Shown in pieces: positions 16,275-24,140 of a DNA stretch of 64,000 nt; the stretch's first letter is position 1; each line of letters opens with the position of its first letter. The DNA is from Halobacteriovorax sp. GTDB lineage: Bacteria > Bdellovibrionota > Bacteriovoracia > Bacteriovoracales > Bacteriovoracaceae. Below the pieces are notes generated by a model that was not told where the DNA came from, made no database searches, and saw nothing but the letters and a program-made list of their open reading frames with translations. The stretch lies in NCBI GenBank assembly GCA_002720865.1, contig PBIO01000020.1:62001-126000 (forward strand). Reading direction: 5' to 3'. Made by a program: the position numbers and the translations under genes.

Positions 16275-17342
16275 ATGACTGAAAACAACCAAAAGAATAT
16301 TGATGTGCAAGAGTATTACGGAAAAGTGCTTCAAAAATCCGACGACTTAAAAACTAATGCTTGCTGCACGATCGTTAAATATCCCGATCATATTAGAGAG
16401 ACAATGTCCTTAATCCACGATGAGGTCATGGAGAAATATTATGGCTGCGGCCTAACTATTCCTCAGGGTTTAAAAGACTGTAAGGTTTTAGACCTAGGCT
16501 CTGGTTCAGGTAGAGATTGCTACCTAATGAGCCGACTCGTTGGAGAAAATGGAGAAGTTGTTGGGGTTGATATGACCGACGAGCAACTTGATGTTGCCCG
16601 CAGACATGAAGAGTATCACGCAAAACAATTTGGCTACTCAAAACCAAATACAAAATTCTTAAAAGGATATATCGAAAAATTAGATGAACTAAATCTAGAA
16701 GATAATTACTTTGATGTGATCGCTTCAAATTGCGTTATCAATCTTAGTCCCGATAAAGAAGCTGTTTTAAGAGAGGCCTACCGCGTTTTAAAACCGGGAG
16801 GAGAGCTCTACTTCTCAGATGTTTATTCAGACCGAAGAGTTCCGGAGCATTTACAAAATGACGAAGTCCTTTGGGGAGAATGCTTAAGCGGTGCCCTTTA
16901 TTGGAATGACTTTTTAGCAATTTCTAAAAAAGTTGGATTCCTAGACCCAAGAACAGTTGAAATTGCTCCTATTACCATCGAGTCAAAAGAAGTTGAAGAA
17001 AAGGTCGGTGATATAAAGTTTTATTCAATTACCTATCGTCTTTTTAAACTTCCTGAACTCGAGTCCGCTTGTGAAGATTATGGTCAGTCTGTGGTTTACA
17101 AAGGGACGGTAGAATATGAACCAAATATTTTTGTTTTAGATGGAAATCACGCCATAGAAAAAGGTGTAGAGTTTAAGATCTGTGGAAACTCTTGGCGAAT
17201 GCTTGAGCAATCAAGATTCAAAAAGCATTTTGATTATAATGGAAATTTTGAAAAGCACCTTGGGATTTTTGAAGGTTGTGGGGGTGAATCTCCCCTTGAA
17301 AATATCCCTCAAAAGGGCGGAAACGGTGGGAGCTGTTGCTAA
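16275..17342 (+). CDS. arsM: Arsenite S-adenosylmethionine methyltransferase
   Basis: This 355-residue cytoplasmic enzyme should methylate As(III) using SAM. The Rossmann motif I VLDLGSGSGRDC (71-82) and VGVDM are followed by SNCVIN and GECLSGALYW. Its cysteines C30, C58, C153 and C203 match the As-binding set of the algal CmArsM (44, 72, 174, 224): the C30-C58 gap is 28 and the C153-C203 gap is 50, as in that enzyme. The protein ends in a glycine-rich GGNGGSCC tail. Translation is coupled to the next gene through TAATG. It leads an operon with a DUF547 protein and a radical SAM enzyme. AAAGG precedes the ATG by nine bases. Confidence 0.92.
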   Translation: MTENNQKNIDVQEYYGKVLQKSDDLKTNACCTIVKYPDHIRETMSLIHDEVMEKYYGCGLTIPQGLKDCKVLDLGSGSGRDCYLMSRLVGENGEVVGVDMTDEQLDVARRHEEYHAKQFGYSKPNTKFLKGYIEKLDELNLEDNYFDVIASNCVINLSPDKEAVLREAYRVLKPGGELYFSDVYSDRRVPEHLQNDEVLWGECLSGALYWNDFLAISKKVGFLDPRTVEIAPITIESKEVEEKVGDIKFYSITYRLFKLPELESACEDYGQSVVYKGTVEYEPNIFVLDGNHAIEKGVEFKICGNSWRMLEQSRFKKHFDYNGNFEKHLGIFEGCGGESPLENIPQKGGNGGSCC

Positions 17343-18106
17343 TGAAAGTTTTTATACTTGTGAGTCTTAGTTTTTTGAGTTTTTCTGGCTTTGCCTTTGA
17401 TCAAAATCACAAGGTTTTTGATCAGCTTTTAAAGGAAAATGTCGTCTTCAAGGGACAACAATCTTTAGTAAACTATAAGAGCTTAAAAAAGAACCCTGCA
17501 AAACTTAATGATTACTTAGCTTCCCTTTCTGCAGTTAAAAAAACTGAATTTGATACTTGGACAGCAGGAAATAAGTTAGCCTTTTTAATTAATGTCTATA
17601 ATGCTTTTACTTTAAAATTGATCATCGATAACTACCCTACTAAAAGCATTAAAGACTTAGGGACTCTTTTTAAGAGCCCTTGGAAGAAAAAGTTTTTTAA
17701 GTTATTTGGAAAAGAAACGCATCTAGATGAAGTAGAGCATGTTATGATCCGAAAAAACTTTGACGAGCCCAGGATTCATTTTGCTGTAGTTTGCGCTTCA
17801 ATTGGTTGCCCTCCCCTACATAGATTTGCTTTCACGGGAAATCTCTTAGAGAAGCAATTAAAGGAAGCTACTAAAGTTTTTCTAATGGATAGAGATAAAA
17901 ACTCTTATGACCCCATAAAAAAGAAGCTTAAGTTATCAAAAATTTTCAAATGGTATGGGGATGACTTTAATAAAAAATATGGTGGATACTTAAAGTTTGT
18001 TAGCACTAGAATTACGAGTGATAAGAAACATCAAGGCTTAATCGCCAAGGATAATGTTAGTTCTAGCTGGAATAGCTATGATTGGAACTTAAACGAAACT
18101 AAATAA
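17342..18106 (+). CDS. Secreted DUF547 protein in the arsM operon
   Basis: A 254-residue exported protein with a cleavable signal peptide (SFSGFA). Unlike the other two DUF547 proteins here it has no lipobox. Conserved blocks are VNYKSL, LAFLINVYNAFTLKLI, IHFAVVCASIGCPPL, SKIFKWYGDDF and the C-terminal YDWNLN. The start is ATG 17342, overlapping the arsM stop by one base; it also ends in TAATG with the radical SAM gene, so all three are translationally coupled. DUF547 genes occur beside arsenic methylation and arsenosugar genes in other bacteria (family context, from memory), but their role is not established. Confidence 0.88.
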   Translation: MKVFILVSLSFLSFSGFAFDQNHKVFDQLLKENVVFKGQQSLVNYKSLKKNPAKLNDYLASLSAVKKTEFDTWTAGNKLAFLINVYNAFTLKLIIDNYPTKSIKDLGTLFKSPWKKKFFKLFGKETHLDEVEHVMIRKNFDEPRIHFAVVCASIGCPPLHRFAFTGNLLEKQLKEATKVFLMDRDKNSYDPIKKKLKLSKIFKWYGDDFNKKYGGYLKFVSTRITSDKKHQGLIAKDNVSSSWNSYDWNLNETK

Positions 18107-19050
18107 TGGCTGAACTAAGTCCAAACAAATTCAAAGATAAGTACCTAACGGCCAAGGAAGAGAAACGAGCTTTTGTTCCTATGAAGAAAATGGAAACTCT
18201 TTGGTTTAATACGGGAACTCAATGCAATTTAAAATGTGCAAATTGCTATATTGAATCATCACCGACTAATGATCGTTTAGTTTATCTTACAGCGGATGAT
18301 GTCAGACCTTTTCTCGCTGAAATTGTTGAGAATAAGAATAATAGAATCTCTTTGGATCGAGTTGCCTTTACCGGTGGCGAGCCATTTTTAAATCCCAATA
18401 TGTTTGAGATTTTAGAGGAAACCTTCAAGGCAGGCCTTAAAGCACTTGTGCTAACCAATGCCTACAAAGTCATTTCAAGAGCTGAAAATAAATTTTTGGA
18501 ATTAAAAAAGAAGTATAATTCAAATCTTAGTCTTAGAGTATCTCTAGATCACTATACAAAAGCAGTTCATGAACAGCAACGAGGAGAGGGAACATTTGCC
18601 CCTACTCTAAAGTCTCTCAAGTGGCTCTATGACAATGGCTTCAATATCTCTCTCGCGGGAAGAAGTATTACTGGTGAAGACTTGGATTTGGCCAGAAGTG
18701 GATACCAAAAGCTTTTAGAGGATCATGATATTGGTCTTAAATTAAGTTCAGAAAACCTTGTCATTTTTCCAGAAATGGATGCTATGGAAGATGTCCCTGA
18801 AATCACGATTGATTGCTGGGGAATCTTAAAGAAGACTCCTGAAATGCAAATGTGCTCTACTGAAAGAATGATCGTTAAGTCAAAGGACAAAGAGAAGGCC
18901 CAAGTTCAAGCCTGCACCTTAATCGCTTATGACGAAAGCTTTAATATGGGTGAGACTTTGGAGGAATCCTTTCAAGATGTTTACTTAAATCATCCCTTTT
19001 GTTCCAAGTTCTGTGTTCTCGGTGGAGCTAGCTGCTCTTCCACTTCATAG
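18106..19050 (+). CDS. Radical SAM protein with C-terminal Cys cluster (arsenic operon)
   Basis: The 314-residue cytoplasmic enzyme has the radical SAM CxxxCxxC motif in QCNLKCANCY (C40, C44, C47) and the GGEPF SAM-binding motif. The C-terminal third carries at least seven more cysteines (DCWG, MQMCS, QACTL, FCSKFCVLGGASC), consistent with a SPASM/twitch-type second iron-sulfur cluster. It is not the standard ArsS sequence, though its place downstream of arsM suggests a similar step, namely adenosyl or other radical-based modification of methylated arsenic. That link is inference. The protein ends GGASCSSTS, echoing the Gly-Cys tail of ArsM. Confidence 0.85.
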   Translation: MAELSPNKFKDKYLTAKEEKRAFVPMKKMETLWFNTGTQCNLKCANCYIESSPTNDRLVYLTADDVRPFLAEIVENKNNRISLDRVAFTGGEPFLNPNMFEILEETFKAGLKALVLTNAYKVISRAENKFLELKKKYNSNLSLRVSLDHYTKAVHEQQRGEGTFAPTLKSLKWLYDNGFNISLAGRSITGEDLDLARSGYQKLLEDHDIGLKLSSENLVIFPEMDAMEDVPEITIDCWGILKKTPEMQMCSTERMIVKSKDKEKAQVQACTLIAYDESFNMGETLEESFQDVYLNHPFCSKFCVLGGASCSSTS

Positions 19051-19075
19051 GTACACGCTTCCTTTTGGAGCTTTC

Positions 19076-19331
19076 AATAGTTTAGGGGAACCTTGCGCGA
19101 AGGATTTTCTCGATATTTAAGTTTGTTAAACTATTCAATTGCAATAATCTTTAAAAACGGACCGATTACCATGGTGATGAATAATGCCAGGTCTGTTTTT
19201 GACCTAAAAATAATCCAGCTGCTCTATAGTGCGTCGATAAACCTTGGATAACGACGAAAGCTTGCTAGCTTCTTGCTTACCTGGATTTTTTCATCACCAT
19301 TTAAGTAGGTCAGTTTTAGTCTAAAAAGATT
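19076..19331. other. Highly structured convergent intergenic region, candidate noncoding RNA
   Basis: This gap between converging genes is rich in pairing. AATAGTTTA (19076-19084) pairs with TAAACTATT (19127-19135) around a small CCTT/AAGG hairpin (19091-19103). A second, nested structure follows: AATCTTT (19146) with AAAGATT (19325), AAAAC and GACC (19154-19163) with GGTC and GTTTT (19308-19317), ATGGTGATGAA (19171-19181) with TTCATCACCAT (19290-19300), and CCAGGT (19187) with ACCTGG (19279). Inside lie CGTCG/CGACG and AAGCT/AGCTT hairpins. It could be a stable RNA, an elaborate two-way terminator or a decayed inverted-repeat element. No ORF or known RNA motif was recognised. Confidence 0.45.
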
Positions 19332-19342
19332 TCTTAAACACC

Positions 19343-20638
19343 CTACGATTTTTCGCTTCTAACTTGTTGATTCTTCCAAAAGGAAGCGTGTACCGAAATG
19401 GGAAACCAGATATGAGTGAGTAGCTCTCCCACCCAGTGATAGTCTGCGAAACCGTAGTGGGTATAACAAAAAACCGAGAAGATGCCATAAATAACTCCGG
19501 TGTTTAATCCAAGGAGCATAGCAGGAAACATAAACCAGATGGCATACCAGCCGTTATACACTGGAGTGAAAAACATGAGACCCGCAAAAATTAAATAGAA
19601 CATTTTCAAACAAAACTCTTGCTCAAAATTCCAATTCTTTTTTAGAAGTTCTCTTAAACAAAATATTCCAAGCATTATAATAAAGCCGGCATAAAAATAG
19701 GCCGTAATTTGCCTAGCTTCATCATCCATAATATCAAGAACTCGAGTTAAAATAGAGTAAAAACCCGGATTCCAAACCCAGTCTATTGTAAACTCTCTAA
19801 GACCTTTTAGTTTTTCAAGACCTACCATCCAATGCATAAACAGTGGCAAAGAGGAAGCCACTACAGTAAGAGGAATTATTCTTTTAATAGATTCTTTAAA
19901 TCCGGAGGTACTTTTGAAAAGTAAAAATGGAATGGCTGCAACTCCCAAAATCTTTGTCCAAATAGAGAAGAAAATAAAGATTAAGCTTTTAGAGAAGTTT
20001 TTCTTTTTTTGAGTGAGAAAGAGTAGAAAGAAAAAGGCAGCTAAAAGGTCTATATGAATGGCCTGAATGAACTCCTTTCCCATTATGGGAAAAACTGCAA
20101 CTAGCATCCAAGGTTTGACTAAAGACTTAAGTTTACTAAAACAGAAAAATACTAAAACAGCGTTTAATACCATTAAAACTCTAAGCCCTATATCAAGCCC
20201 AAAGATGCCACCGATACCAAACCAAATGATTCCTATTGGTGGATAAACCGTGGTCAAGTGGTCAAAACCTATTCTCTCTCTACCTGAGAAAACGAGGTGA
20301 TCTAAAACACTACTATTCGGTGGGTGTAAATACGGATTCTCACCTCTAAACAAAGCATTACCTTCCCAGAGGTAGCGATAATGGTCATTTTCATAAAGGG
20401 GTTCACTAAAAAGAAGTGTAACAACCCCAAAGATAAAGACACCTATTGGAAGCTCAAAGCTTTCTAGCAGTTTTTTATTATGTAAGGCTAAAACGACCAC
20501 AAGAAAAAGAAGAGTAAAGGCTATATAATATATTCCACCGTCATATTCAGGTCCCGGGCTTTTAAAAACTATTCCAAGTGTCGTTAAAATGAAACAAGTA
20601 AGAAGCCAAAGGGTAGAAATGATGTTAAAAGTATTCAC
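19343..20638 (-). CDS. Integral membrane GT-C type glycosyltransferase (GT87/DUF2029-like)
   Basis: A 431-residue inner-membrane protein with about ten hydrophobic segments. The first large periplasmic loop contains YENDHYRYLWEGNALFRGENPY, the acidic motif and NPY found in polyprenyl-phosphate-sugar mannosyl/glucosyltransferases of the GT-C fold, and a later TTVYPPIGIIWFG. It would transfer a sugar from a lipid-phosphate donor outside the membrane. The start is GTG 20638 with no Shine-Dalgarno but an extended -10 directly upstream. It is divergent from a GT2 enzyme with only 24 bases between start codons, and the GT2 could make its lipid donor. The acceptor is unknown. Confidence 0.75.
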   Translation of the reverse strand: MNTFNIISTLWLLTCFILTTLGIVFKSPGPEYDGGIYYIAFTLLFLVVVLALHNKKLLESFELPIGVFIFGVVTLLFSEPLYENDHYRYLWEGNALFRGENPYLHPPNSSVLDHLVFSGRERIGFDHLTTVYPPIGIIWFGIGGIFGLDIGLRVLMVLNAVLVFFCFSKLKSLVKPWMLVAVFPIMGKEFIQAIHIDLLAAFFFLLFLTQKKKNFSKSLIFIFFSIWTKILGVAAIPFLLFKSTSGFKESIKRIIPLTVVASSLPLFMHWMVGLEKLKGLREFTIDWVWNPGFYSILTRVLDIMDDEARQITAYFYAGFIIMLGIFCLRELLKKNWNFEQEFCLKMFYLIFAGLMFFTPVYNGWYAIWFMFPAMLLGLNTGVIYGIFSVFCYTHYGFADYHWVGELLTHIWFPISVHASFWKNQQVRSEKS

Positions 20639-23078: not shown

Positions 23079-23204
23079 ATAATCCTCCAGGATTCTTTGT
23101 GTATTGGTGTAACAAAACTTTTAAACGTGACACATATTTGTAGCCAAGTTATATTTGTTAATATATTTACAAACAAAATAAGGCCTTGGTCAAGTAGGAA
23201 ATTT

Positions 23205-24140
23205 ATGAAGAAAGTATTTTTTATTTTAATGGCGATAAGTTTTGTTGGATGTTACCAAGTTGGAAATCTTCCACCTATTGAAGATCCTTTTGTAGGGAAT
23301 TTCTTAGTTTGTGCAAAAGATAATACAACTGGGCCATTTAAAACTTTTGGCACCTTAGAATCAAATTTAAAAAAGTTCTTTGACTCATTTGTTGTTGCTC
23401 CGGATGGCTCCTCCTTGCCCCCCGAGTTAGATTATTCTTCTAATATTAACTATGACAGCCGCGTAGATTATCAAAAGCTATTAAATGAAAAGGAAAGCAC
23501 TACCACTAAAGAGCTTCGCTCTTCTATATTAGGTCATATTAATGCAATTGATTTGAACTCAACTAATAATGAAGAAATAGTCGCTGCCTTACTAAATGCA
23601 TATAATTTTATTGCCATAGATATTGTCATTCAAAATAGCTGTGAAGGATTAATTAAATCTATCGCCAATCTAGGTGGAGAGAATTCCTTTAAGGCTTTTT
23701 CCGATTCAATAAACTTCGGTTATCAAGTCGCCGGCAAGGTCATGAGCCTCGATCAAATTGAAAAAGAAAAAATTGCTGAATTAACAAACTATGAAGACGC
23801 AAGGATTCACTTTGCTGTAATTTGCGCAAGTGCAGGCTGTCCAGTTTTACTCCATAAACCATTTAATAAAGATGAGCTTGACGAGCAATTAAGCTTTATT
23901 ACCAGAGCTGGCCTAAGGCTTCCTAGAATGTTTGAAAATCGTGGTGAAACAACTTTCTTAAGCCAAATATTTGATTGGTATCTAGACGACTTTATCTCTG
24001 ACATTGCCAGAGAGGAAGATTTTGATACTGATGAAGAGTTCATCCAAGCCTTTGTAAAAAAGTATACACCTGAAGGAACCAGCTTTAATATTAATGATAT
24101 AGAATTTGTAAACTACGACTGGACGTTAAATAGCCCATGA
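23205..24140 (+). CDS. DUF547 lipoprotein upstream of an outer-membrane barrel gene
   Basis: A 311-residue lipoprotein with lipobox SFVGC (Cys16). I placed the start at ATG 23205, after AGGAA, since the 36 residues that extend to 23097 lie before the signal peptide. The DUF547 domain covers roughly residues 50-300 with LLNAYNFIAIDIVI, RIHFAVICASAGCP, FDWYLDDF and the C-terminal NYDWTLN. Its stop overlaps the next start (ATGA), so it is translationally coupled to a predicted beta-barrel protein, which suggests both act at the outer membrane. Confidence 0.87.
   Translation: MKKVFFILMAISFVGCYQVGNLPPIEDPFVGNFLVCAKDNTTGPFKTFGTLESNLKKFFDSFVVAPDGSSLPPELDYSSNINYDSRVDYQKLLNEKESTTTKELRSSILGHINAIDLNSTNNEEIVAALLNAYNFIAIDIVIQNSCEGLIKSIANLGGENSFKAFSDSINFGYQVAGKVMSLDQIEKEKIAELTNYEDARIHFAVICASAGCPVLLHKPFNKDELDEQLSFITRAGLRLPRMFENRGETTFLSQIFDWYLDDFISDIAREEDFDTDEEFIQAFVKKYTPEGTSFNINDIEFVNYDWTLNSP

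Follow-up and report, generated by a model that had tools for sequence, protein, structure and literature searches.

A probable nested pair of mobile-element remnants at a convergent gene junction of Halobacteriovorax sp.

The Locus and its Fold

In the window, that is, the whole stretch of 64,000 nucleotides of Halobacteriovorax sp. DNA analyzed here, a radical-SAM gene on the plus strand (18106–19050) and a membrane-protein gene on the minus strand (19343–20638) converge on a strongly structured segment. The TAG stop of the former (19048–19050) abuts the structured element, and the last residues of the membrane protein, VHASFWKNQQVRSEKS, are read into its right end. The stretch 16275–19050 carries an ORF that we take, from reading its sequence, to be methyltransferase-like, then an ORF of unknown family and then the radical-SAM gene, which scores 67 bits against the arsenosugar radical-SAM family TIGR04167 (threshold 300); it is possibly an arsenic-related cluster. 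Two ORFs of the window, at 17336–18106 and 23097–24140, share by eye the motif ARIHFAV(V/I)CAS(I/A)GCP, the former reading PRIHFAV at the motif start, and are probably paralogues.

The segment was originally predicted to be an unannotated RNA or a decayed repeat lying in a convergent gap at 19076–19331. The genes are convergent, but the minus-strand ORF ends inside the feature and not outside it. All the predicted nested helices (7 bp, 5+4 bp, 11 bp and 6 bp) and the preceding 9-bp stem are present. The 7-bp helix AATCTTT/AAAGATT pairs 19147–19153 with 19325–19331, the 11-bp helix is ATGGTGATGAA/TTCATCACCAT, the 6-bp helix is CCAGGT/ACCTGG and the 9-bp stem is AATAGTTTA/TAAACTATT. The inner part had thus been seen, but not the extent: the feature covers 345 bp (19050–19394), and the inverted repeat 19050–19085/19359–19394, with 20 bp perfect at the foot and 36 bp at 81% identity, had been missed. 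By itself, 19070–19335 folds moderately better than dinucleotide shuffles, with a z of −2.36 on the plus strand (3/200 equally stable) and −3.20 on the minus strand (1/200). For 19045–19400 the z values are −7.21 and −6.81 on the two strands, with none of 100 shuffles equally stable on either, and they are extreme because the outer inverted repeat is included. The strong fold arises because two inverted-repeat layers add up.

The left outer end (19050–19085, plus strand, 36 bp, GGTACACGCTTCCTTTTGGAGCTTTCAATAGTTTAG) begins with the G that is also the last base of the radical-SAM stop codon. The right outer end (19359–19394, minus strand, GGTACACGCTTCCTTTTGGAAGAATCAACAAGTTAG) is its inverted counterpart. 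Between these ends, which together are called the shell here, the left interior (19086–19153) holds the 3′ half of the 9-bp stem, and no homologue was found for it. It is followed by a putative MITE derivative of 165 bp (19154–19318, plus strand) and by the right interior (19319–19358).

The Inner Layer

The MITE derivative has a decayed left terminal inverted repeat (19154–19192, plus strand) and a right one of the AAACTGACCTACTT type (19279–19317, minus strand). Its core, 19190–19318, recurs at six further sites of the same genome with 78–92% identity over 118–129 bases. The 12-base end occurs exactly 25 times in that genome, and 53 times if one mismatch is allowed, versus 13 times for a reversed-pattern control. 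Four full copies measure 223–224 bp from one 12-base end to the other, and each has a near-perfect target duplication of about 8 bp around it. At C31:133812 (contig 31) only the two ends are left, 50 bp end to end. Compared with the full copies of about 225 bp, the copy at 19154–19318 lacks about 60 bp after the left end, and its left end and target duplication are decayed. With terminal inverted repeats of 39 bp and dispersed non-coding copies, the inner layer is, as judged from sequence, a MITE, and the terminal repeats and target duplications suggest a DDE-type insertion sequence (IS) as its parent.

Many occurrences of the 12-base end are no more than about 120 bases away from a contig end. 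Eight contig-end sites have in common a stretch of 105–121 bases that is 97–100% identical and whose first 30 bases or so resemble the MITE end, as would be expected of a collapsed multi-copy IS with MITE-type ends. A query made from this IS end matched only the own genome among the 39 genomes searched and none of the relatives. A parent transposase with MITE ends was not seen in the draft assembly, from which the IS interior is missing. The multi-copy repeat with the end AAACTGACCTACTT breaks this assembly at many contig ends (C5, C8, C11, C19, C26, C27, C28, C31 and C32), and the same end is common to at least two different interiors (L022/L030 versus L029).

The Outer Ends and Y1 Transposases

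The outer ends belong to a dispersed family, whose 36-bp pattern, from 16 aligned ends, is GGTAC..G.TT.CTTTT.........A.....TTA. With a sequence-only model, 20 ends were found in the own genome (G000) at E ≤ 0.004, and 9 of the 59 related genomes, the own one counted, had matches. Six of these nine, the own genome and five relatives, carry several strong ends, and all six are of the source organism's family. When 84,980 species genomes were scanned for the exact pattern, 37 stretches matched, among them contigs of Halobacteriovorax sp. bin.43, an Oligoflexia MAG, a Halobacteriovoraceae MAG and a Bacteriovoracaceae MAG; single matches in unrelated taxa are near the number estimated to occur by chance.

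Ends also occur in inverted pairs. Columns 6–17 are identical within each of six pairs of the own genome, compared with a mean of 0.80 for unpaired ends. Variants distinguished include the GGTACACGCTTCCTTTTGGA type, considered with the transposase gene of contig C19, a C31 type and a GCGTTTCCTTTTCCG type. The enclosed sequences are 200–1046 bp long and non-homologous: in a BLASTN comparison of 17 pair interiors, similarity was confined to transposase genes and MITE cores, and the other contents are an esterase-like gene (C11), a gene of 116 aa (C14:1251172), the MITE core (C14:735633) and plain spacer. Folded as DNA, ten single ends gave minimum free energies of 0 to −3.7 kcal/mol, and for each at least 16 of 200 shuffles were equally good. 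Read outwards, the ends at G000:C14:1251584, G016:C31:25211 and G016:C105:3804 give AAAAGGAA(A/G)CGYGTACC with ATG immediately after it, which amounts to a Shine-Dalgarno-like stretch at start-codon distance; the ATG after the first of them starts a real ORF. The end at C11:113796 gives the adjoining ORF a new C-terminus.

At two places in the own genome, C19 (761 bp) and C31:389 (768 bp), an end pair encloses a gene for a Y1 transposase. The C19 protein scores 39.8 bits against PF01797 (Y1_Tnp; cut-off 23) and 66.5 against the NCBIfam model of the REP-associated tyrosine transposase (RAYT), below its cut-off of 80, and matches TnpArep (PDB 4er8) at E 2.5e-5. The end variants match the RAYT flanks of their own genome in G000, G002 and G013. 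In G013, the variants GGTACGTCGATA and GGTACGCGGACA each also occur at one or both flanks of a RAYT gene, and so does GGTACGCGGGTC in G002. A scan of RAYT flanks, run without a shuffle control, gave an inverted pair with a score of at least 15 at 19 of 30 loci, at least one of which (L222) is plain AT-rich sequence. The outer ends are associated with RAYT genes, and the sequences suggest that the RAYT moves them.

One alternative is that the outer repeat is an unrelated two-ended insertion, such as a DDE-type MITE, and that its link to RAYT genes is coincidental. DDE elements typically have long perfect inverted ends, the interiors vary, and the single ends, unlike GTAG REPs, are no more palindromic than shuffles. 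However, these ends flank two separate Y1 genes of the own genome as well as some in G002 and G013, the flank variants match the dispersed ends of each genome, and long terminal inverted repeats around RAYT genes have been published (PMC3733652). We regard a coincidental link as quite unlikely.

As for the shell at 19050–19394, no transposase gene lies inside it. Columns 18–39 of its right end are closest to the left end of the C19 RAYT element (19/22), and the right interior shows a weak likeness to the sub-terminal part of the same element, for which 27 of 500 shuffles were equally good in the best of the interior tests. This similarity is just suggestive, and we do not regard it as proof that the shell arose from the C19 element by deletion; the shell may formerly have been, or have copied, a RAYT element.

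Empty Sites in Sister Species

The junction was compared with those of G001 and G002, the two genomes of the same genus examined. In G001, TAG, AAGCTCCCATATA and GAAATGGG follow each other directly, and in G002 the two convergent genes overlap with no gap; neither has a shell. In the own genome, TAG is followed by GTACACG...CGTGTACC and then by GAAATGGG, so that the shell lies between TAG and GAAATGGG. Since the shell is absent in both sisters, an insertion here is far more probable than two losses. The membrane protein has lost the overlapping tail that it has in G001 and G002, and its new C-terminal tail comes from the inserted element. No target duplication was seen at the outer ends of 19050–19394, and about 13 bp of the G001 junction are missing at the own-genome junction.

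Two further loci can be compared. Three states are seen at C14:1251172: in G002 the stop and start simply overlap as ATGA, in G001 precisely one 34-bp end separates them, and in the own genome the G001-type end is joined by a second, inverted end that precedes the next gene. Mobilization of the 116-aa gene as cargo is rejected as likely, the gene having one end in G001 and none in G002. At the convergent junction C14:735633, the end pair is present in both the own genome and G001, with parallel changes at positions 6, 9 and 13 of the two ends; G002 has no ends and about 390 bp of other sequence there, which makes this comparison ambiguous. For this end family, the sister species supply natural empty sites, a clean solo insertion of 34 bp among them, and these bear on the question of how, if at all, RAYT-type enzymes mobilize their repeats.

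Position Relative to Stop Codons

Fifty-seven ends were located in the regions retrieved, and one at a contig edge was dropped. Of the remaining 56, 20 start at −4 to +1 from the end of an in-frame stop of an ORF of at least 70 codons, whereas in the window 173 of 6773 intergenic start positions do so; note that orthologous loci and paired ends are non-independent and that the control comes from one genome. By genome, the numbers are 10/20 in G000, 3/15 in G016, 3/8 in G013, 3/6 in G001, 1/3 in G021 and 0/4 in G002. A stop trimer is present at 33 of the 56 ends, and 17 of these 33 are in frame with an ORF of at least 70 codons versus 88 of 1452 intergenic window positions with such a trimer, so a target preference for TAG is insufficient alone as the full cause. 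The placement is mildly surprising, as is the solitary 34-bp end at an ATGA overlap. Selection against gene damage in a dense genome may lie behind the placement, and, according to PMC3733652, the termini of GTAG REPs often give flanking ORFs a TAG stop.

A more specific idea, which we offer tentatively and consider rather doubtful, is that a tyrosine transposase of Halobacteriovorax-like bacteria sets single ends of 34–36 bp, and not whole elements alone, at gene boundaries, preferring sites right behind in-frame stops or in ATGA overlaps, that pairs come to bracket unrelated DNA (spacer, native gene or MITE), and that older ends shift towards the type of the transposase now present. If this were true, the shell would be one outcome of an insertion system guided by stop codons, and the rule of placement would show which single-stranded DNA or transcription-linked target such enzymes use.

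The same placement is relevant to the alternative that the shell has been retained because it serves both convergent genes as a bidirectional 3′ boundary, in the form of an RNA stem or a terminator. The ends abut in-frame stops far above control, and the orthologous convergent locus C14:735633 keeps its end pair in two species with both ends changed at the same three positions. Yet there is no terminator-like site at the outer stem, the sisters are without the shell at this junction, and a genome-wide change of end type with the RAYT explains the paired changes without an RNA stem. Such a retained boundary is, in our view, very unlikely.

Does the Segment Encode an RNA?

The stable fold on both strands, the two inner hairpins and the ability of REP-type elements 3′ of genes to act as RNA elements (PMC3733652) would fit transcription of the gap into a true structured non-coding RNA, either 6S-like or new. 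Such an RNA is nevertheless highly improbable given the dispersal of the sequence, the searches below and its absence from the orthologous junction in both sisters examined. No Rfam family reached its gathering score in the 64 kb. At E ≤ 10, five chance-level matches were obtained in 18900–19600, none of them 6S, the best being a miRNA with 22.1 bits against a gathering score of 249. A 6S or other Rfam RNA is thereby rejected, and the proposed resemblance to 6S RNA comes down to a rod-like outline alone, with neither a sequence nor a covariance match.

Covariation is weak: with RNAalifold on eight copies of the inner layer, none of 26 pairs had both sides changed. When the terminal stem was imposed, 4 of 28 pairs had one sequence each with both sides changed, and 5 of 500 shuffles scored as high. 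These changes come mostly from the decayed copy at C14:735633, and terminal inverted repeats yield such changes anyway; we read them as terminal inverted repeats and not as a single RNA with covariation. No promoter-like site was found at the feature. Of two terminator-like sites on the minus strand, one (19207–19187) lies inside the MITE and has a weak T tail, and the other (19435–19413) lies outside the element.

The repeat half of the original prediction held and the RNA half found no support: both layers are dispersed inverted-repeat elements, an outcome that the prediction itself had set against the RNA. One candidate RNA is removed, and covariation tests on such gaps can mislead, since the paired ends change in step, both following the transposase, and so mimic the compensation seen in RNA stems.

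Interpretation

We conclude that the segment is very probably a nested pair of mobile-element remnants, a MITE inside a transposase-less, RAYT-type shell, as suggested by the inverted repeat, the end family and the absence in both sisters. The outer layer would be a two-ended element whose 36-bp ends serve as the terminal inverted repeats (TIRs) used by a REP-associated-type Y1 (HUH) tyrosine transposase. Such an element, here without its transposase gene, would have entered a formerly abutting or overlapping convergent junction right at the stop codon of the radical-SAM gene. Next, a MITE derived from a DDE-type IS would have inserted into the shell, and about 60 bp of it would have disappeared later; the inner element would thus be the younger one, and the whole feature would be without RNA function. 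Some observations count against this reading. The shell has neither a transposase gene nor a target duplication at its outer ends, the left end and target duplication of its MITE are decayed, its interior has no convincing RAYT homology, the other pair interiors are mutually non-homologous, which is unusual for copies of one element, and the solitary 34-bp end in G001 indicates that a pair need not be one element everywhere.

Comparison with Known Systems

The inner layer resembles IS-derived bacterial MITEs in its 39-bp inverted ends, the target duplications of about 8 bp at its full copies, its dispersal and its lack of an ORF, and differs from them in that no parent transposase was identified, the parent interior being missing from the draft assembly.

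The outer family is neither a GTAG REP nor a REPIN. A GTAG REP is a palindromic hairpin with a GT(A/G)G foot, whereas at least 16 of 200 shuffles folded as well for all ten ends. REPINs, as far as parts of the literature describe them, are short conserved doublets; here no significant single-end hairpins were found, and the 17 pair interiors of 200–1046 bp share RAYT and MITE matches alone. Like RAYT/REP systems as described in PMC2817692 and PMC3733652, this one shows transposase and ends that change together and ends that lie 3′ of coding regions.

The closest known system is the TIRtron/TIRYT class, in which RAYT-type transposase genes lie between long terminal inverted repeats (Di Nocera et al., 2013, PMC3733652). 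No recognized description of the present end family was found in the part of the literature covered, and Bdellovibrio is not mentioned in the main text of PMC3733652 or in the available parts of PMC2817692 and PMC6006769. The outer family differs in that its ends start with GGTAC, while a GGGGWSAS motif is reported for some TIRs (PMC3733652), in that its hosts are Halobacteriovorax-type bacteria, and in that the copy at 19050–19394 has a nested MITE and no transposase. The two are alike in having a Y1 transposase gene enclosed by inverted repeats that are not related to GTAG REPs, seen in the present family at C19 and C31 and not in the copy at 19050–19394, and in being moderately abundant dispersed repeats that occur as singles and dimers. 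The dispersed ends are also cognate to the transposase, with 20 of them in the own genome and variants that match the RAYT flanks. On these features, the outer family matches the TIRtron-type organization and would be an addition to the published class.
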